Translations under genes and position numbers: made by a program | The notes under the pieces: generated by a model | Database searches by the model: none | What the model was told of the DNA's origin: nothing | What the model saw: the letters and a program-made list of their open reading frames with translations, nothing else | Shown: positions 880 to 43,144 of the stretch, one piece after another | Layout of the letters: every line of letters starts with the position of its first letter | How positions within the stretch are numbered: the stretch's first letter is position 1 | Assembly: GCA_002381615.1 (NCBI GenBank) | Contig: DFWY01000082.1 | Span: forward strand, 7,750 to 56,323 | From: Polaromonas sp. UBA4122 | GTDB taxonomy: Bacteria > Pseudomonadota > Gammaproteobacteria > Burkholderiales > Burkholderiaceae_C | DNA: 48,574 nucleotides | Direction: 5' to 3'

Positions 880-934
880 AAAAAATGCCTGCAATGCATA
901 TGGAACGGGCGCAGTCAGCTATTAAAAGAGTAGC
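880..934 (+). repeat. 55-bp dispersed repeat, copy 1
   Basis: Intergenic copy of the GCTAT-N9-AGC family. It begins AAAAAATGCCT and ends AGCTATTAAAAGAGTAGC. It has the same length as the copy at 3732-3786 and shares its first 11 bases and the CAGCTATT block. Confidence 0.7.
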
Positions 935-1018
935 CTGTCTGGGATAAAGGCAAGACAAATCCTCCAACTCGGGCGTCTGGTTTATTCAGAAGCCCCTAAC
1001 TTTCTTTCAGGAAATAAC

Positions 1019-1642
1019 ATGTTGCTTGACGCTGATGACTCCCAACTGGTGCTGGTGGACTACCAGGTTCGCCTGATGCCCGCCATTTTTGAGAATGAAC
1101 TCGTGATCGCCAATGCGGTGCGCCTGGCCCGCATGGCCCAGGCGCTTGAGGTGCCCGTGTGGGGCACCCGGCAAAACCCCGACAAGCTGGGGCAAAACGT
1201 GCCCGAAGTGCAGGCGGCGATTGATGCGGCCGGTGGCAAAATACTGGCCAAGATGCATTTCAGTGCCGTAGCGGATGGCTTGGTCGACTGGCTGCGGCCA
1301 CCGCTGCGCAAGGCGACTGGCGGCGGCAACGCCCGCAGCCTGCCCAAGCACCTTCAAAAAGCAGCGCCGCCCGAAGAAGCGGGACGGAACATGATCGTGA
1401 TCGCCGGTTGCGAAGCGCATGTGTGCCTGATGCAGACCGCGCTGGAGCTGCTGGAAGAAGAGTTTGACGTGTGGGTCGTGACCGATGCTTGCAGCTCACA
1501 CAGCGAGTGCAACCGGGATGCCGCCTTTGACCGGCTGGCCGGCAATGGCGCCGAACTGGTGACGACTGAGATGGTGGCGTTTGAATGGCTGCGCACCTGT
1601 GAACACCCGGAGTTCAAGGACGTGCTGGCGTTGGTGAAGTAA
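1019..1642 (+). CDS. Isochorismatase-like cysteine hydrolase
   Basis: 207-aa single-domain member of the isochorismatase (cysteine hydrolase) superfamily, a cytosolic Rossmann-like fold. The expected catalytic triad is visible: D14 in LVLVDYQ, K78 in ILAKMHFSA and C136 in GCEAHVC. The preceding GCEAH segment carries the usual cis-peptide neighbourhood. AGGA lies 6 bases before the ATG. Members closest to this length and pattern are usually annotated as hydrolases of unknown substrate (YcaC-like/nicotinamidase-related), and the substrate cannot be told from sequence. It stands alone, convergent with the ABC exporter gene, with a palindromic element between their 3' ends. Confidence 0.88.
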   Translation: MLLDADDSQLVLVDYQVRLMPAIFENELVIANAVRLARMAQALEVPVWGTRQNPDKLGQNVPEVQAAIDAAGGKILAKMHFSAVADGLVDWLRPPLRKATGGGNARSLPKHLQKAAPPEEAGRNMIVIAGCEAHVCLMQTALELLEEEFDVWVVTDACSSHSECNRDAAFDRLAGNGAELVTTEMVAFEWLRTCEHPEFKDVLALVK

Positions 1643-1650
1643 ATTAATTG

Positions 1651-1784
1651 GATTCTGACTCTCATGGAACCTTAAGCATCCCATTCGACGGCTGGGGTAG
1701 TGGATTGCCGCGCTGCGCTCGCAATGACGACCCGCTTTGCCATCCCGAGGGCGCTTAAGGTCGCGCCATGAGAATCTGACCCTA
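1651..1784. repeat. Palindromic intergenic element (REP/MITE-like)
   Basis: Two imperfect inverted arms (about 1651-1684 and 1743-1782) share the blocks TCTCATGG and CCTTAAGC in inverted order. They flank a central segment (1703-1728) reading GATTGCCGCGCTGCGCTCGC followed by AATGAC. That centre is itself a partial palindrome (ATTGC...GCAAT) and resembles the 'GTCATTGCGAGCGCAGCG' type of repeat common in many bacterial genomes. It sits between the 3' ends of two convergent genes, a usual place for such elements. No coding capacity. Confidence 0.5.
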
Positions 1785-1797
1785 ATACCCCAGATGT

Positions 1798-3537
1798 TTA
1801 CGATGCCCAACGGTAGCTGCTTGCCTCGTGTAGCGTCCAGCTGCCGTTACCGGGCAGCTCCAGCACCCGGTGGTGGTGCTTCAGGAGGGTCTGATGGTGG
1901 CTGACGCTGATCGGTGTGATCGACAGGCCGGCAAGTTGGCCGTACAGGCACTCCTCATTGGTCGCATCCAGGGCGCTGGTGGCCTCGTCGAGCAGCAGGT
2001 AGCGCGGCTTGGCGAGCAAGGCCCTGGCGAAGGCCAGCCGCTGCTGCTCGCCGACCGACAGCACCCTGGCCCAGTCCAGTTCGGCGCACAGGCCGCCGAA
2101 GCGCTCAGCCAGCGTCGGCAAGTTCCCCCGCTCAAGCCACTGCAGCAGTTCTTCGTCCGAGATGTTGCGCTCAGTTTGGGGGTAGGTCAGCTGGCAGCGC
2201 AGGTCGCCCAGGGGCAGGTAGGGCTGTTGGGGCAGAAACAGCATGTCCGAGCCGGCCGGGCGAGTCACCTCGCCCGAGCCCGTGTTCCACAGCCCGGCAA
2301 TCACCCGCAACAGCGAGCTCTTGCCTGTGCCGCTGGGCCCGACGATCAGCAGTCCCTCGCCCGGCTTGACGGAAAGCGTGAGCCCTTGAACCAGCAGGTG
2401 CTCCCGGTTGGGCGTGAGCACGGTCAGCCGCTCAAGGGCGAGCTCAAAGCCAGGCACGGTATAAATCTGCTGGGGCCCGTCGTCGGTGGCGCTGGCGGGC
2501 TGGCCAGCCTCAACACACAAGGCTTCCGAGAACGCATGCAGCCGGTCAACACCGGCGGAAAAGCGGCTAAGGCCCTCGAAGTGCTCAACAATCACCGTCA
2601 GTGCGGTCAGGATGGCCGCGAAGGCGCCAGCGGCCTGGATCGCCCGGCCGACCTCCAGATCGCCGGAGAGGACATCGTTTGCAATGATCACGGTGGGCAA
2701 CACGATGGTCAGGAAACTATGGGCGTACTGGAAGAGGTTGAGCTTGAACTGCCAGCGCAGCACTTGCTGGTAGTTGGCGTAGACCGCCGCGAAAACACGC
2801 TGCAGCGCCGACATCTCGCGCGCCTCGCCGTCGTGGAAGGCAATCGGCTCAGCGTGTTCGCGCACCCGCACCAGGCTGAAGCGAAAGTCTGCCTCGCGCT
2901 GCAGTTGGCGAAAGTTCAACCCGATTAGCCGCTTGCCGAATACCGCGCCCGTGAATACGGTACTGAACATCGCATAGCCGACCAGGAAGTAAACCAGCCC
3001 CTGCGAGATGGTCCACAGCACGCTGGAAAAGGCGACCAGGTCGATCACCGAGCCCAGCACGATCATCGAGAAGTAGAGCGACTGCTGGGTGAAGCTGTTG
3101 ATGTCTTCGGCGATGCGCTGGTCGGGGTTATCGATGCCGGTGGTGTTGAGCCGGTAATAGGCGCGCTGGCTGAAATAGCGTGCCAGAAAGCTGTGCGTCA
3201 GCCAGCGGCGCCAGCGCAGCCCGAGCGTGTCGCGCACGTAGTAGTACAGGGCATAGATGGGCACCGCTGCCACGAGGATGGCCGTGTAGCGCCAGATCGA
3301 GGCCCAGAAGCGATCGGTATCGCCCGCGGCCAAGGCCGAGGTGAATTCGCCCGTCTCCTGGTTGAACAGCACGTTGAAGGCGGTCTGCCCCAGCAGTAAC
3401 AGGATCAGCAGGGCCAGCATGCCCCTGGCACGCCAGCGTTCATCCGAGAGCCAGTAAGGCCGCGCGATCGTGACGAAGCGTCGCCACAAGCGGGCGTTGA
3501 AGCCGGGTTTTTCTTCTGTTGTCGTTGGCATCTGCAT
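1798..3537 (-). CDS. ABC transporter, permease-ATPase fusion (SbmA/BacA/YddA-like, COG4178)
   Basis: 579-aa half-transporter with the permease first and the ATPase at the C-terminus. Inner-membrane helices lie at about 37-57, 83-100, 154-200 and 270-315. The long first part (RPYWLSDERWRARGML, FNQETGEFTSAL) is typical of the SbmA/BacA-like permease family (ABC_membrane_2). The ATPase has Walker A GPSGTGKSS (400-408), signature LSVGEQQ (493-499) and Walker B YLLLDE (513-518), all intact. Relatives include peptide importers (SbmA/BacA, which lack the ATPase) and YddA, whose substrate is uncertain. ATG start preceded only by a weak ribosome-binding site. Monocistronic. Confidence 0.88.
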   Translation of the reverse strand: MQMPTTTEEKPGFNARLWRRFVTIARPYWLSDERWRARGMLALLILLLLGQTAFNVLFNQETGEFTSALAAGDTDRFWASIWRYTAILVAAVPIYALYYYVRDTLGLRWRRWLTHSFLARYFSQRAYYRLNTTGIDNPDQRIAEDINSFTQQSLYFSMIVLGSVIDLVAFSSVLWTISQGLVYFLVGYAMFSTVFTGAVFGKRLIGLNFRQLQREADFRFSLVRVREHAEPIAFHDGEAREMSALQRVFAAVYANYQQVLRWQFKLNLFQYAHSFLTIVLPTVIIANDVLSGDLEVGRAIQAAGAFAAILTALTVIVEHFEGLSRFSAGVDRLHAFSEALCVEAGQPASATDDGPQQIYTVPGFELALERLTVLTPNREHLLVQGLTLSVKPGEGLLIVGPSGTGKSSLLRVIAGLWNTGSGEVTRPAGSDMLFLPQQPYLPLGDLRCQLTYPQTERNISDEELLQWLERGNLPTLAERFGGLCAELDWARVLSVGEQQRLAFARALLAKPRYLLLDEATSALDATNEECLYGQLAGLSITPISVSHHQTLLKHHHRVLELPGNGSWTLHEASSYRWAS

Positions 3538-3691
3538 CTGTTAGCACATCGTAAGGCTTGCTTTCAGGATTGCCAACTGGGAAACGAATGCATAGTTAAA
3601 CAGACTCGTGCTCCAGTGCCATGCCTTGTCTGCTCAGTGTCGAACATAGCTCGATAACCTCCTCTGGGAAATTAATTAGGGTCGGAATCGA

Positions 3692-3729
3692 AATAAAGAA
3701 CCCCGCACCAAGGGGCGGGGTTCTTTATT
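3692..3729 (+). terminator. Strong hairpin, rho-independent terminator type
   Basis: Perfect 15-bp inverted repeat: AATAAAGAACCCCGC (3692-3706) pairs with GCGGGGTTCTTTATT (3715-3729) around an 8-base loop. The AT-rich outer stem gives an A-tract before and a T-rich stretch within the descending arm on either strand, so it could act in both directions. It is oddly placed between two divergently transcribed genes. Confidence 0.6.
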
Positions 3730-3731
3730 GG

Positions 3732-3786
3732 AAAAAATGCCTCAAGCCCAATAGATACGGAGGCAAGCAGCTATTGATCTGATAGC
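3732..3786 (+). repeat. 55-bp dispersed repeat, copy 2
   Basis: Begins AAAAAATGCCT like copy 1, contains GGCAAGCAGCTATTG, and ends GATAGC. It follows the hairpin by two bases. Confidence 0.75.
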
Positions 3787-3933
3787 ACCCATCAGCGCAT
3801 CGCCATCCATGGCCAATAGCCGTCAGCTTGCAGCAAGACCGCTGTTCATAATTAAGAATTCAGTTTCGACTTTTTAGACGCCATTTCATCGTCTTTTGCC
3901 TGACTTTTTGTGGTCACTTCCCGGAGACATTCC

Positions 3934-4914
3934 TTGTTCAAGTCCCTTCAACTCAGCAAATCCGACGCCGGCTTTTCGGCCGACATCACCGAAATCGAAG
4001 AATCCCAATTGCCGGCAGGCGACGTGCTGGTCCAGGTCGATTATTCAAGCCTGAACTACAAGGATGGCCTGGCCATCACCAACAGCGGCCCCGTGGTGCG
4101 CAACTGGCCCATGGTGGCCGGTATCGATGGGGCGGGCCTGGTACTGGAGTCCACCCACGCGGCCTGGAAGGCCGGGGACCGGTTTGTTCACAACGGCTGG
4201 GGTCTGGGCGAAACCCGCTGGGGATTGATGGCTGAACGTGCCCGCTTGCAGGGCGACTGGCTGGTGAAGTTGCCGCAGGCGTTCACCACGCGTCAGGCCA
4301 TGGCGATTGGCACGGCGGGCTACACGGCCATGCTTTGCGTGCTGGCGCTGGAACAACATGGCATCAAGCCCGGCGTTAGCGAGGAAGTGCTGGTGACGGG
4401 CGCCACCGGCGGTGTGGGCAGCGTGGCAGTGGCCTTGCTCAGCAAACTGGGCTATACCGTGGTGGCAGCTACCGGCAAGGCCAGCGAAGAAAACTATTTG
4501 AAGCAGCTCGGTGCTACCCGTGTGATGGACCGGTCTGAACTGTCGGCACCGGGTAAACCGCTGCAAAAAGAGCGCTGGGCCGCGGTGGTGGATGCCGTGG
4601 GCTCGCACACATTGGCCAATGCCTGCGCGCAAACCCGTTATGGCGGTGTGGTGGTGGCCTGCGGGCTGGCGCAAGGCGCGGATTTTCCGACGACCGTGAT
4701 GCCTTTTATTCTGCGCGGCATCACACTGGCCGGTATCGACAGCGTAATGGCGCCACTCGCGCGCCGCCAACTTGCCTGGGATCGCCTGGCGCAAGACCTG
4801 GACCCTGTCAAGCTCGAATCCATGGTTGAAGAAGTCCCCCTGGCCCGCGTTGCGGAAAAAGCTGCGGAATTGATGGCGGGCAAGATTCGCGGTCGTGTCG
4901 TCATCAAGATTTGA
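3934..4914 (+). CDS. acuI: Acrylyl-CoA reductase (NADPH), YhdH/AcuI family
   Basis: 326-aa zinc-free medium-chain reductase that converts acrylyl-CoA to propionyl-CoA with NADPH. The TTG start is chosen because GGAG sits 7 bases upstream and the resulting N-terminus (MFKSLQLSKSDAG) matches the family. The longer GTG reading at 3910 adds eight unmatched residues. Family segments visible: VDYSSLNYKDGLAIT, GWGLGETRWGLMAE, the nucleotide-binding VTGATGGVGSVAVALL (about 148-163), MPFILRGITLAGIDSVM, and a C-terminus GRVVIKI. prpE follows after 38 bases, so the pair is probably an operon feeding C3 acids to propionyl-CoA. High similarity to YhdH/AcuI throughout. Confidence 0.9.
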   Translation: MFKSLQLSKSDAGFSADITEIEESQLPAGDVLVQVDYSSLNYKDGLAITNSGPVVRNWPMVAGIDGAGLVLESTHAAWKAGDRFVHNGWGLGETRWGLMAERARLQGDWLVKLPQAFTTRQAMAIGTAGYTAMLCVLALEQHGIKPGVSEEVLVTGATGGVGSVAVALLSKLGYTVVAATGKASEENYLKQLGATRVMDRSELSAPGKPLQKERWAAVVDAVGSHTLANACAQTRYGGVVVACGLAQGADFPTTVMPFILRGITLAGIDSVMAPLARRQLAWDRLAQDLDPVKLESMVEEVPLARVAEKAAELMAGKIRGRVVIKI

Positions 4915-4952
4915 ATCTGAACAAGTCGTAAAAACAAAACTGGAGATAAGTC

Positions 4953-6878: not shown

Positions 6879-7082
6879 TGGAAAGGAGCGGTTTGAGTGG
6901 GGTGCAGCTCAAGATCACACTCAAGTTGTCTCAACTAGAGAAAATCTGTTTTCGGTGGCACAATCTAAGCTGTCTGAAGGCCCTTCCTGTGTCACAGTCG
7001 CATCCGCTAATCGGTCCAGCCGTGTTGCGGAAGGTTAATTAACCAGCTAATGTTTCCCCAAGGGAAACGAAGGTCAGCGGAT

Positions 7083-9983: not shown

Positions 9984-10031
9984 GGTCGCGACAAACTCCT
10001 GAAACACAAGAATACACCTGAAAGAATCGAA

Positions 10032-11309
10032 ATGGCTATCGTAGAAGTCAAAGTTCCCCAACTGTCCGAGTCTGTGGCGGAAGCCACCATGTTGCAGTGG
10101 AAAAAGAAGGTCGGCGAGGCAATTGCCGTAGACGAAATCCTGATTGAAATCGAAACCGACAAAGTTGTGCTGGAAGTGCCCGCGCCGTCAGCTGGCGTGC
10201 TGACCGAGCTGCTCGTTCCCGATGGTGGCACGGTGGTATCGGATCAGGTGATCGCGAAAATTGATACCGAGGGCAAGGCAGGGGCGGCTGCGCCAGCACT
10301 TGCGTCCGGCGCGCCTGCTGCTGCTACTGCTCGGGCACCGGCGCCTGCGCTTGCTTCTGCCCCGGCAGCAGGCGGATCCATGGCTGGTGTGGCTATGCCG
10401 GCTGCTGCCAAATTGATGGCAGACAACAAGCTGGTGGCAGGTTCTGTGTCTGGCACCGGCAAGGATGGCCGTGTCACCAAGGGCGATGTTCTGGGTGCAA
10501 CGGCGGCAGGTGCTACTAAATCAATAGCATCCACTGTAATACCTACGGTCGTCCAAATCACTGCTTTACCGAAAGTAGCAGCGCCTGCCAGGCCCGTCGA
10601 TTTGGGCGAGCGTCCCGAGCAGCGCGTGCCCATGAGCCGCCTGCGCGCCCGTATTGCCGAGCGCCTGCTGCAGTCGCAATCGACCAACGCCATCCTGACT
10701 ACCTTCAATGAAGTCAACATGGCGCCGGTGATGGAAATGCGCAAACGTTTCCAGGAAAAGTTTGAAAAAGAGCATGGTGTCAAAATCGGATTCATGAGCT
10801 TTTTCGTCAAGGCGGCCGTGCATGCGCTGAAAAAATACCCCGTGCTTAACGCCTCGGTGGACGGCAACGATATCGTTTACCACGGCTATTTCGACATCGG
10901 GATTGCTGTTGGTTCACCGCGCGGCCTGGTTGTGCCCATCCTGCGCAATGCCGACCAGATGAGCTTTGCCGACATCGAGAAGAAGATCGCTGAATACGGT
11001 GCCAAGGCGCGTGACGGCAAGCTGGGCATTGAAGAGATGACGGGGGGTACCTTCTCCATCTCCAACGGCGGCGTGTTTGGCTCCATGCTGTCCACCCCCA
11101 TCATCAACCCGCCGCAGTCCGCCATTTTGGGCGTGCACGCCACCAAAGACCGTGCCGTCGTTGAAAATGGCCAGATTGTGGTTCGCCCGATGAACTACCT
11201 TGCCATGAGTTACGACCACCGCGTCATCGACGGCCGCGAAGCGGTGCTGGGCCTGGTGGCCATGAAAGAGGCGCTGGAAGATCCGGCCCGTCTGCTGTTC
11301 GATATTTGA
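10032..11309 (+). CDS. sucB: Dihydrolipoyl succinyltransferase (E2 of 2-oxoglutarate dehydrogenase)
   Basis: 425-aa core subunit of the 2-oxoglutarate dehydrogenase complex. Residues 1-77 form one lipoyl domain with the lipoylated lysine K44 in [12 protein letters not shown]. An Ala/Pro-rich linker follows (80-115). The E3/E1-binding domain is at about 118-150 ([30 protein letters not shown]), then a second linker, then the catalytic domain from about 195 with H396 and D400 in YDHRVIDG. The second linker contains the unusual stretch [16 protein letters not shown], which is encoded by a copy of the 55-bp repeat in reverse orientation. It follows sucA after 48 bases and precedes lpdA. Confidence 0.97.
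10512..10565 (-). repeat. 55-bp dispersed repeat, copy 7 (inside sucB)
   Basis: Read on the minus strand, the conserved end GCTATTGATTTAGTAGC (10512-10528) matches the GCTAT-N9-AGC signature exactly. The distal half is too diverged to align with confidence, so the outer limit is estimated from family length. It lies in frame in a linker-coding part of sucB. Confidence 0.4.
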
Positions 11310-11372
11310 TACTTGTCGGGGCGGGCTGGCGCAGCTTGACTGCCAGCCTTGTTTCCAATTCACTGGAAAAAC

Positions 11373-12800: not shown

Positions 12801-12819
12801 CTGTCCGGGTACAGAATCG

Positions 12820-20342: not shown

Positions 20343-21947
20343 ATGAATCAGCAAGACCAACCGGTTTCCGAAATCCTGGCTACGCCTGACAAAGAGCCAA
20401 ATAAGGCCGTAGCGCCTGAGCAGACTGCGCGGGAAGCTCCTGATTTGATAGCTGCTGGCGAACTGGAGGAGTCCTCCATGCCAAAACCTGCTGTCGAACG
20501 ACGCGTTCCAGTGGCTCCGGCAACCACCATCCGGTTTGAAGACGTGGTGACCGGTCAATTTGACGCAGACGAAGACGATGTGGCGCTTGAGTTGCCAAAA
20601 CGGGTATTGATGCCGCAGCCCGAAACCCCCAAGTTGCACAAAGTACTGGCGCAAGCCGGGTTGGGTTCCAGGCTGGAAATGGAGCAGTTGATTCTTGAAG
20701 GGCGCATTTCGGTCAATGCCGAGCCCGCCCACATTGGGCAGCGCATCCAGTTTGGCGATACCGTCAAGGTGAATGGCAAGCCCATTCGGGTGCGTATTGA
20801 GCCGCCACCTCCCCGCGTTATTGCGTACCACAAGCCCATCGGGGAGGTCGTAACGCACGACGATCCGCAAAACCGGCCGACCGTGTTCCGGCGGCTGCCC
20901 AAGCTGTTTCAGGGTAAATGGCAGTCCGTCGGGCGTCTTGACCTGAATACCGAAGGCCTGCTGCTTCTGACGAGTTCTGGCGAGTTGGCCAATAAGCTGA
21001 TGCATCCGCGGTTTGGGCTTGAGCGCGAATACGCCGTGCGTGTGTTGGGTGCCCTGAATAATGAGGAGAAAAAACGCCTGCTCGAGGGCGTGACGCTCGA
21101 TGACGGCGTGGCGCAGTTCAGCTCGATCGAGGCTGGCGGCGGTGAGGGGGCCAATTGCTGGTACCGGGTCACCATTTCTGAGGGGCGTAACCGCGAGGTT
21201 CGGCGCATGTTTGAAGCGGTGGGCCATGCAGTAAGCCGGCTTATTCGGATCCGATACGGTGCCATGCTTTTGCCGCGTGGGCTTAAGCGGGGTGCATTCG
21301 TTGAACTCGACGAGCGTGATATCTGGGCGCTGACCAGCGCGGTGACTCGTTCCGAATCTCGCGCCGATCCGCGAGGAGCGCCCAAACAGACCTTCCCCCC
21401 GGGTGAGGGCGGTGATGAGCGTCGTCGGGGCCAGGGCCCACGCGGAAATGATCGTTCGCGCGGCGCCCGTGGTCGGCCTCAGGTCACCGATGCTGGCCAA
21501 CCCGATGCATTGCCCCAAGCCGGGGCCGAGCAGGAGCCGAATGATCTGCAACCGCCCATGAACAGGATGGATTCCGCGCCCAGAGGCAACAGGCGTCGCG
21601 GCGGAAAAGGACGTAGCCAGGGCGGCAATGTCGGAGCCGGCTCCCGGTCTGGGCAGCCGACGGGCAATGGTGGCTCGCAGGGGCCAAAGCGGCGCGATGA
21701 ACGTGGAGACCGGAGCGACAAAGGTACCGGCGGCGCACAGCCTGATCCCATGAAAACGTCGTTTGGCTATATCGGTGCGGATACCTTCACAAGGCAGCGG
21801 CAAGACCAGGGGCAACGGCGCAGTGGCGGCGGTGGCAACGCAGGCGGTATGGGCGGTGGTGGTGACCAGCGTCGTGGTGGTGGCAATAGCGGTGGGAACC
21901 GCGGAGGCGGTAATCGAGGCGGTGGAAACCGCAGCGGAAATCGCTGA
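20343..21947 (+). CDS. rluB: 23S rRNA pseudouridine synthase RluB with long Gly/Arg-rich tail
   Basis: 534-aa RsuA/RluB-type enzyme. Residues 1-95 are a disordered Pro/Glu/Ala tail, residues 96-145 an S4 domain ([14 protein letters not shown]), then the catalytic domain with D200 in [14 protein letters not shown] and the [14 protein letters not shown] block. From about 345 to the end the protein becomes extremely Gly, Arg, Asn and Gln-rich, with repeated RGG/GGN units, an RGG-box style tail probably binding RNA. Some Burkholderiales RluB proteins have such tails, but this one is about 190 residues long. The N-terminal tail ([12 protein letters not shown]) is encoded across a reverse copy of the 55-bp repeat. 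The start four bases after scpB suggests coupling. Confidence 0.93.
20436..20490 (-). repeat. 55-bp dispersed repeat, copy 8 (inside rluB)
   Basis: On the minus strand the conserved end reads GCAGCTATCAAATCAGGAGC (20436-20455). It fits GCTAT-N9-AGC and is almost identical to the end of copy 4 (GCTATAAAATCAGGAGC). It lies in frame in the disordered N-terminal tail of RluB. Confidence 0.55.
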
Positions 21948-28263: not shown

Positions 28264-28959
28264 ATGGCAAAACACCTCGATTTGGAAGAGCAGGAACAAC
28301 TTGATGAGATCAAGCACTTCTGGAAGCAGTACGGCGACCTCATTACCTGGGCGCTGATTGTCGTTTTAGGTGCCTTTGCTGCCTGGAACGGCTACCAGTA
28401 CTGGCAGCGTAACCAGGCTGCACAGGCATCGGTGATGTATGACGAGGTCGAGCGCGCTGTGCAGTCGGGCGACCCGACAAGGATTGACCGGTCGCTGGCT
28501 GACATGAAAGACCGTTTCGGCCGAACCACTTATGCCCAGCAAGCCGGCCTGCTGGCCGCCAGGGCCTATTACGACAAAGGCAATCTGGATGCTTCTCGCG
28601 CTGCCTTGAACTGGGTTGCCGAGAAAGCCTCCGATGAAGGCTATCAGGCCATCGCCAAATTGCGCCTTGCTGGGCTCCTGCTGGAAAAGAAAGCCTATGA
28701 CGAGGCTCTGCAGCAAGTCTCTGGTTCTTTTCCGAAAGATTTTGCTGCGCTGGCTGCTGACCGACGCGGCGACATTCTGGCTGCCCAGGGCAAAAAAGGC
28801 GAAGCCAAAGCGGAATACGAAAAAGCATACAAAGGCCTTGACGAGCGCACCGAGTACCGGCGCTTGGTTGAGGTCAAGCTCAATGCGCTGGGCGTCGATC
28901 CAACCGCAGGGCAAGTCAAGCCGACCACTGCCGCATTCAATGCTGAGGTGAAGCAATGA
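28264..28959 (+). CDS. YfgM-family membrane-anchored TPR protein
   Basis: 231 aa. A short cytosolic N-terminus (MAKHLDLEEQEQLDEIKHFWKQYG) is followed by one transmembrane helix (about 26-46) and a periplasmic TPR-like domain of the YfgM/TPR_21 family. E. coli YfgM works with the SecYEG/PpiD translocon and periplasmic chaperones. The ATG at 28264 matches the family start; the 108 bases upstream in the same frame do not resemble it. Overlaps bamB (ATGA). Confidence 0.9.
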   Translation: MAKHLDLEEQEQLDEIKHFWKQYGDLITWALIVVLGAFAAWNGYQYWQRNQAAQASVMYDEVERAVQSGDPTRIDRSLADMKDRFGRTTYAQQAGLLAARAYYDKGNLDASRAALNWVAEKASDEGYQAIAKLRLAGLLLEKKAYDEALQQVSGSFPKDFAALAADRRGDILAAQGKKGEAKAEYEKAYKGLDERTEYRRLVEVKLNALGVDPTAGQVKPTTAAFNAEVKQ

Positions 28960-30101
28960 TTTATAAGTCTATTAGGCCTCTAGCCCTTTCTGCACGTGCG
29001 CCAGTAGCTATCATTTTTGCAGCGATTCTGAGTGGTTGCTTTGGTGGTGCGAGCAAACTCCAACCCGCGGAATTGCAGCCGGTGACCGCCTTGGTAGCCG
29101 CCCGTCAAAGCTGGACCACCCGCATTGGGCAAGTGAACTTCCCGCTGGAAGTGAATGTATCCGGCAATAGCGTAGCCGTTGCGAGCAGCGACGGCACCGT
29201 GGCGGTGTTGGATGCTCAAACCGGCCATGACGTTTGGCGCGTTGCTCTCAACATGCCCATCGCTGCAGGCGTTGGAAGTGATGGAAAAGTCGTGGCGGTG
29301 GTGACGAAAGCAAACGAAGTTGTCGCGTTGCAGGATGGCCATGAACTTTGGCGTCAGAAGCTCAACGCCCAGGCATTTACCGCGCCTTTTGTGGCCGGTG
29401 CGCGGGTATTCGTCCTGGCAGCCGACCGGTCGGTCAATGCCTTTGACGGACAGACGGGTCGCAAGCTGTGGGCACAGCAGCGGCCCAACGAGCCTTTGGT
29501 GCTGCGCCAGTCCGGCGTGATGCTGGCTGTCGGCGATACCCTGGTGGTTGGCCTGGCCGGTCGGCTGGCGGGCCTCAATCCTTCCAACGGCAGCATTCGC
29601 TGGGAAGCGCCCATTGCCTCACCACGCGGGATCAATGATGTGGAGCGGCTTGTCGATCTGGTAGGGCGCGTCAGCAGGGACGGCGACAATGTGTGCGCGC
29701 GGGCTTTTCAGGCCAGCGTAGGCTGCGTCAACGCAGTTCGCGGCAGCCTGCTCTGGACCAAACCCGCCAACGGCGTGCAAGGTATCCATGGCGATGATCG
29801 TCTGTTGTTCGGCACGGAAGCCGACGGTACAGTCATTGCATGGCGACGCACCGACGGCGAGCGTGCCTGGTCTACAGACCGTTTGCGTTACCGGAGCCTG
29901 ACGGCTCCGCTGGTGGTCGGGCGTTCCGTGGCTATTGGCGATTTCACCGGTTTTATTCACCTGCTGTCGCGTGAAGATGGCTCCCTGCTCAACCGCTTGC
30001 CTACTGACGGCTCGGCCATCGCCGCAGCCCCTGTGCTGGCGGGCAATACGCTCATTGCGGTCACCCATAACGGCGGCATTTACGGCTTTCAGCCTGAATA
30101 A
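28956..30101 (+). CDS. bamB: Outer membrane protein assembly factor BamB
   Basis: 381-aa lipoprotein of the BAM complex with an eight-bladed beta-propeller of PQQ-like repeats (DGTVAVLDAQTGHDVWRV, NAFDGQTGRKLWAQ, LNPSNGSIRWEAP, AWRRTDGERAWSTDR). Lipobox ILSGC with acylated C28. The signal peptide core (RPLALSARAPVAIIFAAIL) is encoded by a forward copy of the 55-bp repeat. Translationally coupled to yfgM by a 4-base overlap; der follows after 26 bases. Confidence 0.95.
   Translation: MIYKSIRPLALSARAPVAIIFAAILSGCFGGASKLQPAELQPVTALVAARQSWTTRIGQVNFPLEVNVSGNSVAVASSDGTVAVLDAQTGHDVWRVALNMPIAAGVGSDGKVVAVVTKANEVVALQDGHELWRQKLNAQAFTAPFVAGARVFVLAADRSVNAFDGQTGRKLWAQQRPNEPLVLRQSGVMLAVGDTLVVGLAGRLAGLNPSNGSIRWEAPIASPRGINDVERLVDLVGRVSRDGDNVCARAFQASVGCVNAVRGSLLWTKPANGVQGIHGDDRLLFGTEADGTVIAWRRTDGERAWSTDRLRYRSLTAPLVVGRSVAIGDFTGFIHLLSREDGSLLNRLPTDGSAIAAAPVLAGNTLIAVTHNGGIYGFQPE
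28971..29023 (+). repeat. 55-bp dispersed repeat, copy 6 (in the bamB signal peptide)
   Basis: Reads GGCCTCTAGCCC in its first part and GCCAGTAGCTATCATTTTT near its end, finishing GCAGC, which fits GCTAT-N9-AGC. It shares CTCTAGCCC or TAGCCC with copies 4 and 5. It encodes codons 6-22 of BamB. Confidence 0.6.
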
Positions 30102-30127
30102 GCGCAGTCCTGCCAGAAACCTGATTT

Positions 30128-31471: not shown

Positions 31472-31539
31472 GACTACACGCCGAACAGAGTGGCTGTGGT
31501 ATGGTTGTGGTCTCTTAATTTTTGAACACGGAAAATATC

Positions 31540-31800: not shown

Positions 31801-31807
31801 TGCGCCG

Positions 31808-32968: not shown

Positions 32969-33024
32969 TCTGGCAATTTCATTAGGCACAATGTCGGTGT
33001 AATAAAAAAAGTGAGTTTCATCCC

Positions 33025-34446: not shown

Positions 34447-34457
34447 GGAAGACAAAA

Positions 34458-35360: not shown

Positions 35361-35366
35361 ATTGCC

Positions 35367-35555
35367 ATGGACGGCAATACGCTCTGGCAAGCGCTGGCCC
35401 TCATGCTGGTGATTGAAGGGCTGTTACCGCTTATCTCGCCTGCGGGGTGGCGCCGGATGTTTGAACAGATTCTCCGCTTAAGCAGCGGGCAGATCCGCTT
35501 TTTCGGACTCTGCAGCATCGCGGCTGGCGTGATCTTGCTGGCGGTGCTGGCGTGA
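35367..35555 (+). CDS. DUF2065 (YjeT-like) small membrane protein
   Basis: 62 aa with two hydrophobic segments (ALALMLVIEGLLPLISP and FGLCSIAAGVILLAVLA) separated by a basic loop (WRRMFEQILRL), the usual DUF2065 pattern. The same small gene follows hflC in many proteobacteria, so an accessory role with HflKC/FtsH is plausible but unproven. Confidence 0.85.
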   Translation: MDGNTLWQALALMLVIEGLLPLISPAGWRRMFEQILRLSSGQIRFFGLCSIAAGVILLAVLA

Positions 35556-35696
35556 ATTGCACGCCACTGAAGTGTCACTCACAAGCCACGGCTGACACCC
35601 GTATTTGCGTCTGACTCCCGCATCCTGCCGCCGGCAGCTCAAAAAGCGGCCCCAAGCCCGGTAAAATCCGGTTTTTAATAGCTCACGAAAATTACA

Positions 35697-38295
<2,599 letters not shown>

Positions 38296-38312
38296 GTTGC
38301 CTAAATTTTAGT

Positions 38313-38367
38313 AAAAAATGTGTCTAGCCCATGCTGGACTAGCGTAACAAGCTATAAAATCAGGAGC
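38313..38367 (+). repeat. 55-bp dispersed repeat, copy 4 (carries a Shine-Dalgarno)
   Basis: Begins AAAAAATGTGTCTAGCCC 18 bases after the purA stop and ends AGCTATAAAATCAGGAGC, matching GCTAT-N9-AGC. The AGGAG within its last seven bases lies at optimal distance from the ATG at 38374. Confidence 0.7.
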
Positions 38368-38373
38368 AACCTC

Positions 38374-38898
38374 ATGTTGACCGAAGACGGCAAACATCTC
38401 TATGTCAGCTATGACGAGTACCACAACCTGATTGAAAAACTGGCGATCAAGATTCACCAGTCCGATTGGAAGTTCGACACCATTTTGTGCCTCGCGCGCG
38501 GCGGCATGCGTCCGGGTGACATTCTTTCGCGCATTTTTGACAAGCCGCTGGCCATCATGTCAACCAGCTCCTACCGCGCCGATTCCGGCACGGTGCAGGG
38601 CAACCTCGACATCGCGCGCTTCATCACTACACCCAAGGGTGAGATTGCCGGTAAAGTCCTGCTGGTGGACGACCTGGCTGATTCGGGACATACCTTGAAC
38701 GCGGTGATTCATCAACTGCGTAACAACTACAAGCCCATTACCGAGCTGCGCAGCGCGGTGATCTGGACCAAGGGCGTGTCAGGCTTCCAGGCCGACTATT
38801 CGGTGGAGTTGCTGCCTACCAATCCCTGGATTCACCAGCCGTTTGAGAGCTATGACAGCCTGCGCCCGGAGCAGCTCAAGGCCAAGTGGACGGTTTGA
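38374..38898 (+). CDS. Purine-type phosphoribosyltransferase (Gpt/Hpt-like, COG2236)
   Basis: 174-aa type I phosphoribosyltransferase. PRPP-binding loop VLLVDDLADSGHTL with the paired acidic residues D99-D100; the LARGGMRPGDILSRIF segment corresponds to the PPi loop. Position after purA suggests purine base salvage; the exact base is not determinable. The ATG at 38374 has AGGAG 8 bases upstream, supplied by the end of repeat copy 4. Upstream in-frame codons fall inside the repeat and are not family-like. Confidence 0.88.
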   Translation: MLTEDGKHLYVSYDEYHNLIEKLAIKIHQSDWKFDTILCLARGGMRPGDILSRIFDKPLAIMSTSSYRADSGTVQGNLDIARFITTPKGEIAGKVLLVDDLADSGHTLNAVIHQLRNNYKPITELRSAVIWTKGVSGFQADYSVELLPTNPWIHQPFESYDSLRPEQLKAKWTV

Positions 38899-38994
38899 TT
38901 TTTCGGTCCGCCCGGCAAAAAAATTAAGGCGTAATCTGCCCGAGCGCGCCACTCCGGAAAGAGCAGGGCGACTGCCACTTGCTACCATTGGGTC

Positions 38995-40179
38995 ATGAGC
39001 GAAAAAACCACCGATCTGATCCACCACCCCTACCAACCCCCCGCGGAATTTGCTGCACCGCAGCCGGGCGTGTTCAAGGCGTCCACCGTCATCTTTCCCA
39101 ATGTCGCGACCATGCACACCCGCGACTGGCGAAATAAATCGGGCTACACCTATGGTCTGCATGGCACGCCGACCACCTTCATGCTGGAAGAGCGCCTCTG
39201 CATGCTGGAGGGCGGCCTGCAGTGCGTGCTGGCCTCCAGCGGCTTGAGTGCCATTGCGCTGGTGGATATGGCACTGCTCAAAACGGGCGACGAGGTGCTG
39301 ATTCCGGACAACGTTTACGGCCCTAGCAAGGCGCTGGCCGAGGGTGAGTTGCTCGCTTGGGGCATCAGCCACCAGCTCTACGATGCCATGAGTCCCGCTG
39401 ATCTGGCCTCGAAGATCAGCAGCAAGACCCGGCTGGTGTGGCTGGAAGCGCCAGGCTCGGTGTCGATGGAGTTCCCTGACCTGGCGGAGATGGTGCGCAT
39501 CTGCCGTACCCGCGGGCTTATCTGCGCCCTGGACAACACCTGGGGCGCGGGCCTCGCGTTCAACGCCTTCGACATGGACGCCCAGGGCGGTGTGGGGGTG
39601 GATATTTCCGTCCAGGCCCTGACCAAATACCCGAGCGGCGGCGGCGACGTTTTGATGGGTAGCATCATCACGCGCGATGAGGCCCTGCATGCGCGTATCC
39701 AGGGCACGCACATGCGCATGGGTGTGGGCGTGGGCGCCAACGACGCTGAAACCGTGCTGCGCTCGCTGCCGAGCATTGCGCTGCGCTACGCGGCCCATGA
39801 CCGCACCGGTCGCGAGCTGGCCCGGTGGTTCCAGTCGCGGCCGGAAATTGCACAGGTGCTCCATCCTGCGCTAGAGGATTCGCCCGGCCATGCACACTGG
39901 AAAGCGGTGTGCCGCACCGGCCAGGCTGCCGGCCTGTTCAGCGTGGTGTTTCACGAGCGCTACAGCGTGGCCCAGGTGGAGCATTTCTGCGACAGGCTCA
40001 AGTTGTTCAAGCTGGGCTACAGCTGGGGCGGCCCGGTCAGCCTGGTGATTCCGTACAACATGGCGTCGATGCGCGGGCCAACCTGGCCGCATAAGGGCAT
40101 GCTGGTGCGTTTTTCAATCGGCCTTGAGGCCGTTGCCGACCTTCAGGCAGACTTGGCCCAGGCGCTGGACGAGGCTTGA
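38995..40179 (+). CDS. metC: Cystathionine beta-lyase
   Basis: 394-aa PLP enzyme of the Cys/Met metabolism family, converting cystathionine to homocysteine, ammonia and pyruvate. The PLP lysine is K211 in VQALTKYPSGGGDVLMG. Also present: the substrate-binding YGLHGTPTTFMLEERL, the ALDNTWGAG cofactor aspartate, and the C-terminal RFSIGLE. The TKYPSGGGD context and PxTWPHKGMLVR end are closer to MetC than to MetB/MetZ. Monocistronic start after a 96-base gap with no clear promoter. Confidence 0.92.
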   Translation: MSEKTTDLIHHPYQPPAEFAAPQPGVFKASTVIFPNVATMHTRDWRNKSGYTYGLHGTPTTFMLEERLCMLEGGLQCVLASSGLSAIALVDMALLKTGDEVLIPDNVYGPSKALAEGELLAWGISHQLYDAMSPADLASKISSKTRLVWLEAPGSVSMEFPDLAEMVRICRTRGLICALDNTWGAGLAFNAFDMDAQGGVGVDISVQALTKYPSGGGDVLMGSIITRDEALHARIQGTHMRMGVGVGANDAETVLRSLPSIALRYAAHDRTGRELARWFQSRPEIAQVLHPALEDSPGHAHWKAVCRTGQAAGLFSVVFHERYSVAQVEHFCDRLKLFKLGYSWGGPVSLVIPYNMASMRGPTWPHKGMLVRFSIGLEAVADLQADLAQALDEA

Positions 40180-40235
40180 CCAAGGCCTGCTGGCAATGCA
40201 GTACAGTAAGGGCTAATTATTCACGAAAGCATGCA

Positions 40236-40421
40236 GTGGCAACTCCCAATTATTCCTACGAAAAGCGCCAGAAAGAGCTTGCGAAAAAACGTAAGAAAGA
40301 AGACAAACTCAAGCGCAAAGTCGAAGGCAAGCCGGATGAGGTGGCCGATGACAGTGCCGACACGCCCGGCACCCCCGCTGACACTCAGACAGGATTGCCG
40401 CCGACCGAGTCAGCATCCTGA
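40236..40421 (+). CDS. Small basic conserved hypothetical protein
   Basis: 61 aa from a GTG start: (M)ATPNYSYEKRQKELAKKRKK followed by more Lys/Arg and an acidic Asp/Pro/Thr-rich tail. I recall similar short proteins beginning ATPNYSFEKRQ in many betaproteobacteria; function unknown, probably disordered. A GAAAG lies 6-7 bases upstream. An earlier in-frame start at 40176 would overlap metC and lacks family resemblance. Followed by repeat copy 5 and a terminator. Confidence 0.7.
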   Translation: MATPNYSYEKRQKELAKKRKKEDKLKRKVEGKPDEVADDSADTPGTPADTQTGLPPTESAS

Positions 40422-40444
40422 AATGGCGGATATTTATACATAAG

Positions 40445-40498
40445 ACAAAAGGGTTTAGCCCTTTAACAACGCGCGTAACATGCTATTAATTTAATAGC
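40445..40498 (+). repeat. 55-bp dispersed repeat, copy 5
   Basis: Starts 24 bases after the stop of the small basic gene. Contains TTTAGCCCTTT and ends TGCTATTAATTTAATAGC, matching GCTAT-N9-AGC. Lies just upstream of a terminator hairpin. Confidence 0.65.
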
Positions 40499-40514
40499 AA
40501 GTAGCCCGCCATCC

Positions 40515-40552
40515 AACCCGACCTCACTGTTCATTGGTGATGTCGGGTTTTT
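40515..40552 (+). terminator. Rho-independent terminator
   Basis: Stem AACCCGACCTCAC (40515-40527) against GTGATGTCGGGTT (40537-40549) with one mismatch, a 9-base loop, and a run of five T (40548-40552). Ends metC/small-gene transcription just before the 3' end of mnmH on the other strand. Confidence 0.8.
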
Positions 40553-40555
40553 GCT

Positions 40556-41614
40556 TCAGGGATTTGCCAGCAGGGTTTGCGCCAGCGCTGCCATGGCTGC
40601 CACCGTATGGTCGCGTGGCGAAATCACCCGGGCCGTTTCGTACTGCTCAAAGTTGCGCCGCATCGACTGCAGGTAGACCGGGTCGTAGTGCTTCACCAGC
40701 AATTCGTGAACGACTGAAACCACGTCACCGCTGCTCGCGCGCGCCTGCCAGTCCTGCACGGTGGCCTTGCCGCGTGCTTCGGTCAGGGCACCCAGCCGGT
40801 CGCAGAAAAATGCAATGTCCTTGACAAAAAAATCGTAATCTTCCAGCAGCAGCGCGACTCGTTCGTCTTCGGGCAACTCCAACTGCAGGCAAGGGCTAAT
40901 GCGCATGGCCGCGATCAGTCCTTCGGGCACGGCCACATTGCCGACTTTTTTGCTTTCGCTTTCAATATAGACGGGACGTGCCGGGTTGAAGCTGCGCAAG
41001 GTGGCCCAGATGCGGCTGTCAAAGGCTTTCTGGCTGGGCTGCGGCACACCCGGAATCATGCCCAGCACCGAGCTGCGGTGATGGGCCAGCGCCTCCAGGT
41101 CCAGCACCTGCGCGCCCTCTGCCGCCAGCGCCTGCAGCAGCCGGGTCTTGCCCGAGCCGGTGGTGCCGCAAACGACCTGGTAGCTGTGCCGCGCAGCGAG
41201 CTGCGGTAAATCGGCCACCAGGGCGGCCCTGAAGGCCTTGTAGCCACCGTCAACCAGCGTGACCCTGAAACCGATCTGGTCGAGGATCAGCGCCAGCGAG
41301 CCGCTGCGCTTGCCGCCGCGCCAGCAATACACCAGCGGCTGCCATTCTCGGGGCTTGTCCAGCACGTCGCGCTGAATATGCGCGGCGATGTTTTTGGCCA
41401 CCAGCGCCGCGCCCAGTTTTTTGGCTTCGAACGCGTTGATCTGCTTGTACTGGGTACCGACGATTTTTCGCTCATCATCATGCAGGCTGGGCCAGTTCAC
41501 GGCACCGGGGAGGTGGTCTTCGGCGTATTCGCCCTCGGATCTGGTGTCAATCACGTCGGAAAAACTGCTCAGTTTGCTGAGTGCGTCCTCAGCGGAAATG
41601 CGGTCAAGGCTCAC
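40556..41614 (-). CDS. mnmH: tRNA 2-selenouridine/geranyl-2-thiouridine synthase
   Basis: 352-aa enzyme that replaces sulfur by selenium at U34 of certain tRNAs. N-terminal rhodanese domain with catalytic C97 in YCWRGGKRS, then a P-loop domain (GTTGSGKT, 150-157). The GTG at 41614 is chosen since it overlaps the tesA stop (GTGA), has AAGGA about 10 bases upstream, and places the cysteine at 97 as in the E. coli enzyme; the earlier ATG lies inside tesA. selD is not in the window but would be needed for the selenium reaction. Confidence 0.93.
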   Translation of the reverse strand: MSLDRISAEDALSKLSSFSDVIDTRSEGEYAEDHLPGAVNWPSLHDDERKIVGTQYKQINAFEAKKLGAALVAKNIAAHIQRDVLDKPREWQPLVYCWRGGKRSGSLALILDQIGFRVTLVDGGYKAFRAALVADLPQLAARHSYQVVCGTTGSGKTRLLQALAAEGAQVLDLEALAHHRSSVLGMIPGVPQPSQKAFDSRIWATLRSFNPARPVYIESESKKVGNVAVPEGLIAAMRISPCLQLELPEDERVALLLEDYDFFVKDIAFFCDRLGALTEARGKATVQDWQARASSGDVVSVVHELLVKHYDPVYLQSMRRNFEQYETARVISPRDHTVAAMAALAQTLLANP

Positions 41615-42366
41615 TTGAGAAGTTTCCTTAATTCCGGCCACACATTGGCCAGCATGCTGGCTTGTGACGGCTCGTTGGGATGAATGCGATCAGCCTGGAA
41701 GTGGGCGGCCGAGTCTTCCACATCGGCAATGCCTTTGAGAAGGAAGGGCACCAGCGCCACCCGTTCGGCCTTGGCCACTTTGGGAAAGAGGTTTGCAAAG
41801 CCGGTGCCATAAGCGTCGCCGTAGTTGGGCGGCACCTGCATCCCGACCAGCAGCACTTTGGCACCTGCCTTTTTGGAAGCCTGCGTCATGGCGCTCAGGT
41901 TGCTCTCCGTCATGTCCAGGGGCAAACCGCGCAGCGCGTCGTTGCCGCCCAACTCGATCACTACCGTGGTGGGCCGGTGCTGCGTCAGCAGGGCTGGCAG
42001 GCGTGAGCGCCCACCGGAGGTGGTCTCGCCGCTGATGCTGGCGTTGATCACCTGGGCGAGCTTCGTGTTTTTCTTTTCGCTGGCCAACTGCTTTTCCAGC
42101 AAAGCCACCCAGCCGGTGCCGCGCTTGAGGCCGTATTCGGCGCTCAGCGAATCACCAAGGACCAGAATGGTGTTGGCGGGGTTTTTGGCTTTGGTCGCGG
42201 CAGGCAGGATTTGCGCCTGAGCCTGTGCCGGGGCGAGCCACGGCGCGCCCAGCAACGCAGCGATCAGCATCGCGCCGAATGGTCTTACCCAGCGGTTTCG
42301 CGTGGCAGGGCCAAGCTTGCTACAGTCTGGAAGCGTAAATTTCAAGTTTTCTGATAAGGCTGACAT
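41611..42366 (-). CDS. tesA: Acyl-CoA thioesterase I / arylesterase (SGNH hydrolase)
   Basis: 251-aa periplasmic hydrolase (TesA type). Signal peptide region PFGAMLIAALLGAPWLAPAQAQA, block I GDSLS with S73, block III GGND with N142, and block V DRIHP with D226 and H229, the full SGNH set. The start is uncertain: ATG at 42366 gives a long N-terminus with basic residues before the hydrophobic core, while ATG at 42270 begins inside the core with no charge. The 42366 start would overlap the ATG of the divergent ATPase gene. tesA beside ybbA is conserved in E. coli. Coupled to mnmH by GTGA. Confidence 0.9.
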   Translation of the reverse strand: MSALSENLKFTLPDCSKLGPATRNRWVRPFGAMLIAALLGAPWLAPAQAQAQILPAATKAKNPANTILVLGDSLSAEYGLKRGTGWVALLEKQLASEKKNTKLAQVINASISGETTSGGRSRLPALLTQHRPTTVVIELGGNDALRGLPLDMTESNLSAMTQASKKAGAKVLLVGMQVPPNYGDAYGTGFANLFPKVAKAERVALVPFLLKGIADVEDSAAHFQADRIHPNEPSQASMLANVWPELRKLLK

Positions 42367-43087
42367 GTTTGAACCCGTGGTTTCTGTCGTTAGCGATGCT
42401 TCTTCAACGCCCCCAAGCTCTCCAATTATTTCCGTTGAGCATGTTTTCAAGTCGGTGACCGACTCCACCGGTACCCTGACCATTTTGCGCGATATTAACT
42501 TTGCGCTTGCAGCACGCGAAACCGTTGCCATTGTGGGCGCGTCCGGCTCCGGTAAAAGCACGCTGCTGTCCATCATTGCCGGGCTGGATACGCCGACCCA
42601 GGGCACGGTGCGGCTGGCGGGGGTTGACCTGTTTGCCCTCAGCGAAGATGACCGTGCCGCCTTGCGTGCCCAGAAAGTCGGGTTTGTGTTCCAGAGCTTT
42701 CAGCTCATGGGCAATTTGACGGCGCTGGAAAACGTCATGCTGCCGCTGGAATTGTCGGGTGCTAAAGGCGCCCGCTCGCTGGCGACCGACATGCTCAAAC
42801 GGGTGGGTTTGGGCGAGCGGCTGGGCCATTACCCCAAAGTGCTGTCGGGCGGCGAGCAGCAGCGCGTGGCGTTGGCTCGGGCCTTTGTGGTGCAGCCTGC
42901 CGTGCTACTGGCCGATGAGCCGACAGGCAGCCTGGACTTTGCCACCGGCGAAACCGTGATGACGCTGATGTTTGAGCTCAACCAGGAATTGGGTACCACG
43001 CTGGTGCTGGTCACACACGATCCGGCGATTGCTGCGCGCTGCCAGCGGCGCATCACCATCGAGGCCGGGAAAATCAGTGATTCTTGA
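42365..43087 (+). CDS. ABC transporter ATPase, YbbA/LolD-like
   Basis: 240-aa MacB/LolD-type ATPase. Walker A GASGSGKST (58-66), LSGGEQQ (160-166), Walker B AVLLADE (about 180), and the H-loop THDP. AAGG sits 7 bases before the ATG. Divergent from tesA, as ybbA is in E. coli. There the partner permease gene ybbP follows; here rlmB follows instead, so the permease must be elsewhere or lost. The function of YbbAP is not settled (possibly lipid or hydrophobic-substrate export). A repeat copy starts four bases after the stop. Confidence 0.9.
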   Translation: MFEPVVSVVSDASSTPPSSPIISVEHVFKSVTDSTGTLTILRDINFALAARETVAIVGASGSGKSTLLSIIAGLDTPTQGTVRLAGVDLFALSEDDRAALRAQKVGFVFQSFQLMGNLTALENVMLPLELSGAKGARSLATDMLKRVGLGERLGHYPKVLSGGEQQRVALARAFVVQPAVLLADEPTGSLDFATGETVMTLMFELNQELGTTLVLVTHDPAIAARCQRRITIEAGKISDS

Positions 43088-43090
43088 GAT

Positions 43091-43144
43091 AAAAATGACT
43101 TTTGCCTATATATGGCGGGAGCAAGCAGCTATCAAAAACATAGT
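43091..43144 (+). repeat. 55-bp dispersed repeat, copy 3
   Basis: Begins AAAAATGACT four bases after the ATPase stop and ends GCAAGCAGCTATCAAAAA then CATAGT, matching GCTAT-N9-AGT. Shares GCAAGCAGCTAT with copy 2. Confidence 0.75.

Follow-up and report, generated by a model that had tools for sequence, protein, structure and literature searches.

What is the short sequence that recurs across this 48,574-nucleotide stretch of Polaromonas sp. UBA4122 DNA (hereafter the window), how did its copies arise, and what could read it? We identified a rigid DNA signal of ~66 bp, composed of an A- or T-tract, a GC-rich centre and a dyad at the right end. Where its copies can be aligned, this element changes in place by base substitution, also within conserved genes, where it does so via codon choice. 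By analogy with the uptake sequences of other bacteria, we favour the reading that it may be a long self-recognition signal of the DNA-uptake type, to which we assign a probability of about 0.45.

The first-pass annotation of the window had proposed a dispersed repeat family, and this family is real. A 66-column matrix built from copies of the same genome outside the window gave seven window matches above 25 bits, all on the plus strand, and none in the reversed window. A sequence-only model built from 32 copies (R1), run with filters off, scored six plus copies in the window at 40–47.5 bits (E 7e-14 to 1.5e-11); this recovery is circular by itself because all six were among the 32 training rows. 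In the own genome, the pattern AGCTATNNAATNNNNAGC had 70 matches and the same pattern backwards none, and R1 identified at least 150 copies, all with E < 1e-8. The family thus stands above the backward and reversed controls, and loci of relatives also match. The own-genome sample of 799 kb (the window and 40 chosen regions) contained 168 R1 matches at E ≤ 0.01, a density that is overstated because the 40 regions were picked for matches.

Anatomy and genus dialects of the 66-bp element

The consensus of the element is nATTTnTnAGnAAAAAAnGCCTnTAGCCCAnnnnnGACGGGCGCAAGCAGCTATTAAATTAATAGCA. The A- or T-tract occupies approximately columns 12–15, the GC-rich central stretch columns 22–46, and a nearly invariant AGCTAT-N7-ATAGC forms the right end. 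The spacing is rigid, since the 32 rows align gap-free and only one row among 150 own-genome copies has a one-base insertion; the alignment of 76 copies from loci of other species takes 77 columns. Of the 66 columns, 37 carry more than 1 bit, and the summed column information is 68 bits. AGCTAT and the closing AGC hardly vary, in part because the first search pattern fixed both, and the loosest columns are 31–36. Columns 12–15 almost always read A throughout or T throughout, pointing to a structural A-tract. The GC content of the copies is mostly 0.3–0.5, the flanks are apparently unconserved (30 loci) and, in a comparison with the terminal repeats of miniature inverted-repeat transposable elements, the two ends of the consensus are not inverted copies of one another.

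These features revise the first-pass description in several respects. The length had been given as 55 bp, and the element measures ~66 bp. The GCTAT-N9-AGC/T end is a real signature but is actually the fixed dyad GCTAT-N7-ATAGC, and, taken by itself, the nine-base signature shows only weak enrichment in the window (three occurrences vs 0.49 expected). The statement that there is no inverted-repeat stem is contradicted by this dyad and by another one at the centre of the consensus in five other-genus genomes. A model-free dyad scan of 748 kb of chosen own-genome regions ranked GCTAT-N7-ATAGC first (82 vs 0.29 expected). It also ranked within the top three in two other genomes, sampled by 100 kb of random regions (7 vs 0.02 in G196, 6 vs 0.03 in G091), and was absent from the top dyad lists of random regions of G319 and G197. 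The scan found no comparable alternative dyad in the copy-poor genomes G073 and G013.

For analysis of the central dyad, matches were chosen on columns 1–21 and 47–66 only, leaving the centre unselected. Reversed matches (forward matches in brackets) in this partial-column scan numbered 0 (198) for G000, 1 (8) for G014, 0 (5) for G175, 1 (32) for G197, 0 (28) for G319, 5 (24) for G115, 1 (57) for G091 and 1 (31) for G196. In the consensus of the five other-genus genomes this unselected centre reads as a palindrome, with 0.53–0.62 of cells pairing in register 68; pairing in other registers is 0.07–0.47, with the one exception of register 74 in G091 (five pairs, 0.54). The central dyad is weak in the window's genus (G000: 0.39 in register 66, 0.35 in register 68 and up to 0.33 elsewhere). 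The consensus arms are GCGCA/TGCGC in G319 and G115, GCGCTT/AAGCGC in G196 and G091, and a short GCCC/GGGC in the window's genus. The sequence of the central dyad is thus genus-specific and constitutes a “dialect”. Because copy-by-copy covariation within genomes is mostly weak, with the exception of G115 (z 5.6) and G197 (z 2.8), we describe the central dyad at the level of the consensus and not as a strict hairpin.

Copies in genes and gaps and their evolution in place

Genomic context was assigned to 136 of the 168 own-genome matches (≥30 bits), using genes from a purpose-made gene finder. These copies comprise 46 in convergent gaps, 39 in codirectional gaps in the sense of the genes, 20 in codirectional gaps in the opposite sense, 11 in divergent gaps, 17 in genes (six of them antisense) and three at contig edges. 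The 489 background gaps of at least 40 bp include 80 convergent, 317 codirectional and 92 divergent ones. Convergent gaps are therefore enriched (46 of 116 intergenic copies vs 80 of 489 gaps) and divergent gaps depleted (11/116 vs 92/489).

The first-pass annotation had suggested comparing target sites with and without the element and, where sequences align, this comparison shows that the copies within gcvP, nadE and coaBC are not insertions. The gcvP copy is antisense, and GcvP in the PDB differs at this position by at most one residue. The nadE copy is the fourth best of the own genome (59.5 bits); the SFKENLF stretch that it encodes is family sequence, and NadE lengths lie within three residues of those of PDB homologues. 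The closest 30 of 52 gcvP and of 56 nadE orthologues align without a 22-codon insert, and coaBC has no insert in comparison with its PDB homologues. In these three genes the element is written by synonymous codons, which establishes origin in place for three of the seven genes examined; for gluQ, no alignment across the copy could be made. Synonymous recoding reached the real score in none of 5,000 trials for any of 15 rows (14 distinct copies, as two rows share one window), a test that left out the two of the 17 in-gene copies that run past the gene end. Because the copies had been chosen as matches, this result indicates where the signal resides and not its frequency. Element scores form a continuum among the orthologues, from 74 to −51 bits in nadE (26 of 30 positive) and from 50 to −50 bits in gcvP (22 of 30 positive). 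In the copy-poor genomes examined the scores are negative (G058 at nadE, G003 at gcvP, G048 at both), as they are in G001, which has 35 copies.

Intergenic slots were compared across loci with a match. In the gap between the ATP-binding cassette (ABC) gene and rlmB, orthologous copies share 0.61 identity in core and 0.32 in variable columns (66 pairs), paralogous copies share 0.62 and 0.33 (563 pairs), and the flanks are near random. As orthologous copies in this slot are no more alike than paralogues, the consensus persists where its surroundings have randomised: it is kept at the same loci, whereas unconstrained columns and flanks randomise. The purA-hpt gap, the 5′ end of bamB and the abc-rlmB gap are filled across genera, each with unchanged orientation. 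The gap before hisS is filled in the plus sense in two Rhodoferax-labelled loci and in the minus sense in seven Acidovorax-type loci; sites therefore appear to have been gained more than once.

Linkage between the left and right halves of copies is low, with a Mantel r of 0.03–0.21 vs 0.55–0.76 in simulated copying families. Low linkage would likewise be expected after one ancient burst from a single master, whereas uneven column conservation would not. All pairs sharing more than 0.95 identity are local duplicates. Copying is most evident at loci L245 (365, 4380 and 10355) and L341 (18214, 18379 and 18544, with a 165-bp period), which contain near-identical local copies. At two of five loci with an IS200-type Y1 transposase, an insertion-sequence end starting TAACCATCCCCCGGC abuts a truncated element copy (L144:1288–1360 and L145:180–300), the junction lying once near the left end of the element and once inside AGCTAT. 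The insertion sequence therefore seems to use the element as a target.

Abundance of the element and its copies in the window

Presence of the element in other Comamonadaceae, which the first-pass annotation had mentioned, was confirmed: R1 matches (E ≤ 0.01), some weak, occur at 33 of 80 named hisZ loci. Named carriers include Polaromonas, Rhodoferax, Acidovorax, Diaphorobacter, Curvibacter, Oryzisolibacter and Paenacidovorax; the hisZ loci of JS666 and CF318 have no R1 match. Matches were present in 108 of 299 genomes sampled from the family and in 60 of the 141 genera that these represent. Of these 60 genera, 19 had only one to four matches and 41 included a genome with at least 10 of 17 scored copies, which makes the element abundant in roughly three of every ten genera sampled (41/141). 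None of 16 genomes of other families matched. In viral contigs, two patterns of 22 and 21 bases matched exactly in zero and three stretches, respectively.

Random 20-kb regions gave 43 matches per 100 kb in G091, 20 in G196, 12 in G319 and 14 in G197, with none in the reversed control (threshold 15; the matrices were built partly from matches within those same regions). Extrapolation to ~1,860, ~630, ~680 and ~690 copies, respectively, places these four genomes of other genera at ~600–1,900 copies each. No match occurred in the 200 kb of G073 and the 166 kb of G013 that were scanned, both genomes being copy-poor. In G175, a single contig, the 150 best copies are balanced between strands (74 plus, 76 minus), show no strand difference between record halves (Fisher p 0.25, the origin being assumed at the record start) and have Poisson-like spacing.

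Within the window's genus, copy number is mostly either abundant or nearly nil: among 61 genomes, 17 have no copies, seven have 1–6, three have 35–58 and 34 have at least 72, with up to 84 copies scored per genome. A tree of 25 genomes with an arbitrary root places G001 (35 copies) in a supported clade of copy-rich genomes and G048 (six copies) among copy-rich genomes at an unresolved fork. The element may thus have been lost or reduced more than once within Polaromonas.

The window itself was said to hold eight copies. The six plus-strand copies indeed represent one rigid element. The supposed minus copy at 20436 exists but is a seventh, degenerate copy on the plus strand (20388–20453), because the matrix matches lie on this strand only and none on the reversed window. 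The supposed minus copy at 10512 finds no support, as R1 scores only 9.7 bits there on the minus and 7.1 bits on the plus strand (E 0.05 and 0.3).

Scores given here for individual copies are those of the matrix built without window copies, and gene names are in part our own assumption. Copy 1 (870–935, plus, 54.5 bits; R1 43.3 bits) lies upstream of an isochorismatase-domain gene (1019–1642). Copy 2 (3722–3787, plus, 57.7 bits; R1 47.3 bits) lies between an ABC transporter gene (1798–3537, minus) and a zinc-type alcohol dehydrogenase gene (3910–4914, plus), and copy 3, the degenerate one, lies within long open frames (32.3 bits, reversed control 0; R1 14 bits, E 0.002). Copy 4 (28959–29024, plus, 57.4 bits) is positioned just within the 5′ end of bamB (28956–30101, plus; PF13360, E 7e-72), a position common to many relatives. 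Judging from its translation, the copy in this region (28956–29024) looks like it encodes most of an apparent lipoprotein signal peptide; it is a DNA signal that doubles as protein-coding sequence. The bamB genes of JS666 and CF318 retain a coding relic of the element below R1 detection, and relatives keep its position.

Copy 5 (38303–38368, plus, 60.1 bits) fills the space that separates purA (adenylosuccinate synthetase) from hpt (phosphoribosyltransferase), a slot that is also filled in orthologous Polaromonas, Rhodoferax and Curvibacter loci. Its right end (ATCAGGAGCA) contains an AGGAG Shine-Dalgarno-like sequence ahead of the hpt ATG; the right-end variant ATCAGGAG carries the hpt Shine-Dalgarno-like sequence in many relatives (window 38303–38374). 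Copy 6 (40434–40499, plus, 55.7 bits) lies between genes for a Cys/Met metabolism pyridoxal phosphate enzyme and a rhodanese-domain protein, with the orthologous slot filled in ten other loci. Copy 7 (43080–43145, plus, 56.4 bits) coincides with the stop of an ABC ATPase gene (42302–43087) and precedes the next plus-strand gene (43220–43969), which we take to be rlmB; this slot is filled in eleven other loci. Elsewhere in the window, a sucA RNA motif (RF01070, 91.7 bits) at 6998–7079 overlaps the start of a 977-aa frame beginning at 7050.

Candidate readers of the element

The uptake-sequence reading draws on the in-place evolution of the element, its many copies on both strands, its dialects, its near-absence from some genomes and its A-tract. 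Some protein would read the element on DNA, most likely the DNA receptor of a type IV pilus. Fragments with the element would be taken up and recombined more often, which would drive the consensus; once specificity was lost the element would decay, and genus dialects would act as barriers. Selective transformation is documented in this family: Acidovorax temperans was transformed only by DNA of its own species, and uptake by Verminephrobacter eiseniae requires type IV pili, with foreign DNA competing only partly; in the available excerpt of this report, no uptake signal is named for this selectivity (PMC4212676). The uptake signal sequences (USS) of Pasteurellaceae are described as sequences that “evolve by point mutations”, with AT-tracts whose shape affects uptake and with lineage variants (PMC7811141), and dialects of the DNA uptake sequences (DUS) of Neisseria restrict cross-species transformation (PMC3630211). 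Our element resembles both systems in its many copies on both strands and its lineage dialects, and resembles USS also in its in-place evolution and A/T-tracts. It differs in family and in having 66 bp with dyads instead of a 9–12-bp core, and its uptake role is a putative one. With 37 of 66 columns above 1 bit it lacks such a short core; we therefore regard it as possibly working like DUS or USS and do not file it as a member. With slightly less confidence, we suggest that it might be a third self-recognition code serving natural transformation, evolved independently of those in Neisseriaceae and Pasteurellaceae, tripartite and 66 bp long, with genus dialects, codon-dictating in nadE and gcvP, and apparently lost or reduced on more than one occasion in Polaromonas.

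A number of observations weigh against the uptake-sequence reading. The uptake data come from Acidovorax and Verminephrobacter and not from Polaromonas (PMC4212676), and many new Neisseria DUS are argued to come from recombination and not point mutation (PMC2397512). The 66 bp and 68 bits of the element are far above the cores of known uptake sequences, and 116 of 133 scored copies lie outside genes. Copy-rich genomes also show negative element scores, G041 at both nadE and gcvP and G042, G064, G066 and G071 at gcvP. Approximately 20 extra residues are present at the copy in metH, which may be a true insertion, and ~10 in purL and dapF; the extra residues in all three genes are compatible with insertion there. 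The met-rhodanese and purA-hpt slots show 0.71/0.41 and 0.73/0.42 core/variable identity vs 0.62/0.33 for paralogues, linkage between halves, although low, is above the permuted values in four of the five genomes compared (p < 0.01), and the spread of identities is wider than in column shuffles (standard deviation 0.097 vs 0.056, G000). Families PF01797, PF03772 and PF12019 were compared between copy-rich and copy-poor genomes of the genus. ComEC is present in 30 of 34 copy-rich and 20 of 24 copy-poor genomes; since it is common in both, the competence machinery does not discriminate. No large group of GspH/FimT pilins is confined to copy-rich genomes of the genus. A best GspH/FimT match at E ≤ 1e-18 occurs in 17 of 22 copy-poor vs nine of 32 copy-rich genomes, a tally that is confounded by phylogeny and omits three mid-copy genomes and four with no match. 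Neither ComEC nor GspH/FimT tracks the copies in the genus genomes, and no receptor was found.

The main rival holds that the element is the binding site of a chromosomal DNA-binding protein involved in nucleoid organisation, domain insulation or transcription ends, kept by ordinary selection and lost with the protein. The dyads and A-tract resemble a protein-wrapped site, the preference for convergent over divergent gaps fits such a function, and in-place evolution, uneven distribution and decay are equally compatible with it. We nevertheless consider it less probable than the uptake-sequence reading, as no candidate protein was identified, the best G175 copies show neither strand bias between halves nor departure from Poisson-like spacing, and the central-dyad dialects would demand repeated co-evolution of the protein. 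An RNA-level element, be it a terminator, an mRNA 3′-end structure or a cis-regulatory RNA, could account for the scarcity between divergent genes, for dyads capable of forming hairpins and for the preference of codirectional copies for gene orientation (39 vs 20). It is nonetheless very improbable: none of the three pairs proposed by RNAalifold shows two-sided changes, the top 25 pairs by mutual information all lie within nine columns, six of 17 in-gene copies are antisense, and Rfam, at gathering scores, matches nothing in the window except the unrelated sucA motif. An intrinsic terminator in particular was rejected, since RNAalifold and mutual information revealed no covarying stem with an immediate T-run. 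Chance or composition, to which the weak enrichment of the nine-base signature alone might point, has a negligible probability and is refuted by the backward and reversed controls, with 70 own-genome matches vs none backwards and 43 vs 0 in the 100 kb of random G091 regions.

The element is reminiscent of repetitive extragenic palindromic sequences (REPs) in how many copies it has, where they lie and that they contain dyads. Mobility of a REP-like, non-autonomous kind, driven by a Y1 transposase of the REP-associated tyrosine transposase (RAYT) type or by another transposase, with old copies decayed or co-opted, would also explain the extra residues in metH, the opposite orientations in the gap upstream of hisS, an information content far beyond that needed for addressing a few hundred sites, and the small but mostly significant linkage between halves. 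A Y1 match (PF01797) was found in 60 of 61 genus genomes, in keeping with such an origin, but these include all 17 without copies, so that there is no co-distribution with the element, and the ~232-aa RAYT-type protein is also present in the five copy-free genomes examined. Most genus genomes retain this ~232-aa protein (L171–L189, L155). Element copies in the vicinity of Y1 genes were sought in 25 loci, and G012 carries two inverted element copies just upstream of a second Y1 transposase gene of 293 aa (L176:4200–4409). The nearest copies in the own genome are ~2 and 5 kb from the RAYT-type gene. Simulated copying families show far stronger linkage, near-identical pairs are local duplicates, nadE, gcvP and coaBC contain no insert, and conservation is concentrated in particular columns, partly by construction as the model was seeded by a pattern. 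We therefore judge this origin unlikely, more so than a chromosomal-protein site. REP/REPIN systems with RAYT are similar to the element in abundance, location outside genes and dyads, and differ in that the element does not track the RAYT-type gene, shows little copying linkage and is free of insertion in three testable genes.

The Beta-proteobacterial repeat element (BRE) is likewise dispersed and mostly intergenic, occurs in Comamonadaceae and is sometimes found in genes, but it is described as ~90 bp, 69% GC in Bordetella and often tandem (PMC3110155). The length (66 bp) and GC content (mostly 0.3–0.5) of our element set it apart from this description. The same study lists 29 BRE copies in Polaromonas sp. 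JS666 (PMC3110155), whose 21-kb locus L064 has no R1 match. Closer to the element are two spaced motif pairs reported in 2017 without explanation, ATAGCT(N)22CAAAAG in Polaromonas naphthalenivorans CJ2 and GCTTAT(N)5AAGCG in Acidovorax ebreus TPSY; the available text presents them as statistical pairs, with 125 and 114 copies in single genomes, and places the A. ebreus pair in 44 convergent, four divergent and 59 co-oriented contexts (PMC5217627). In the own-genome sample of 799 kb, all three occurrences of the CJ2 pair fall at a fixed element offset, as do 15 of the 20 A. ebreus pairs present in five other-genus genomes; the copy-poor regions of G073 and G013 contain neither pair. From these offsets, both pairs look like fragments of this element. 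They share its gene context, and the excerpted text describes no 66-bp unit, dialects, evolution or function (PMC5217627). Our searches of the open-access literature returned neither the 66-bp unit nor its dialects, in-place evolution, distribution or function, in agreement with the first-pass statement that no mechanism had been described.

An information-rich, long signal that shapes codons in conserved genes of many genera should have a reader. If that reader is a chromosomal protein, the element marks a major unknown genome organiser. If the element is an uptake signal, as we favour, it would explain the published species-selective transformation in Acidovorax and Verminephrobacter, would bring the lineages with a DNA self-recognition code to three, and would offer natural cases of gain and loss, together with dialect pairs, for studying how such codes begin and end.

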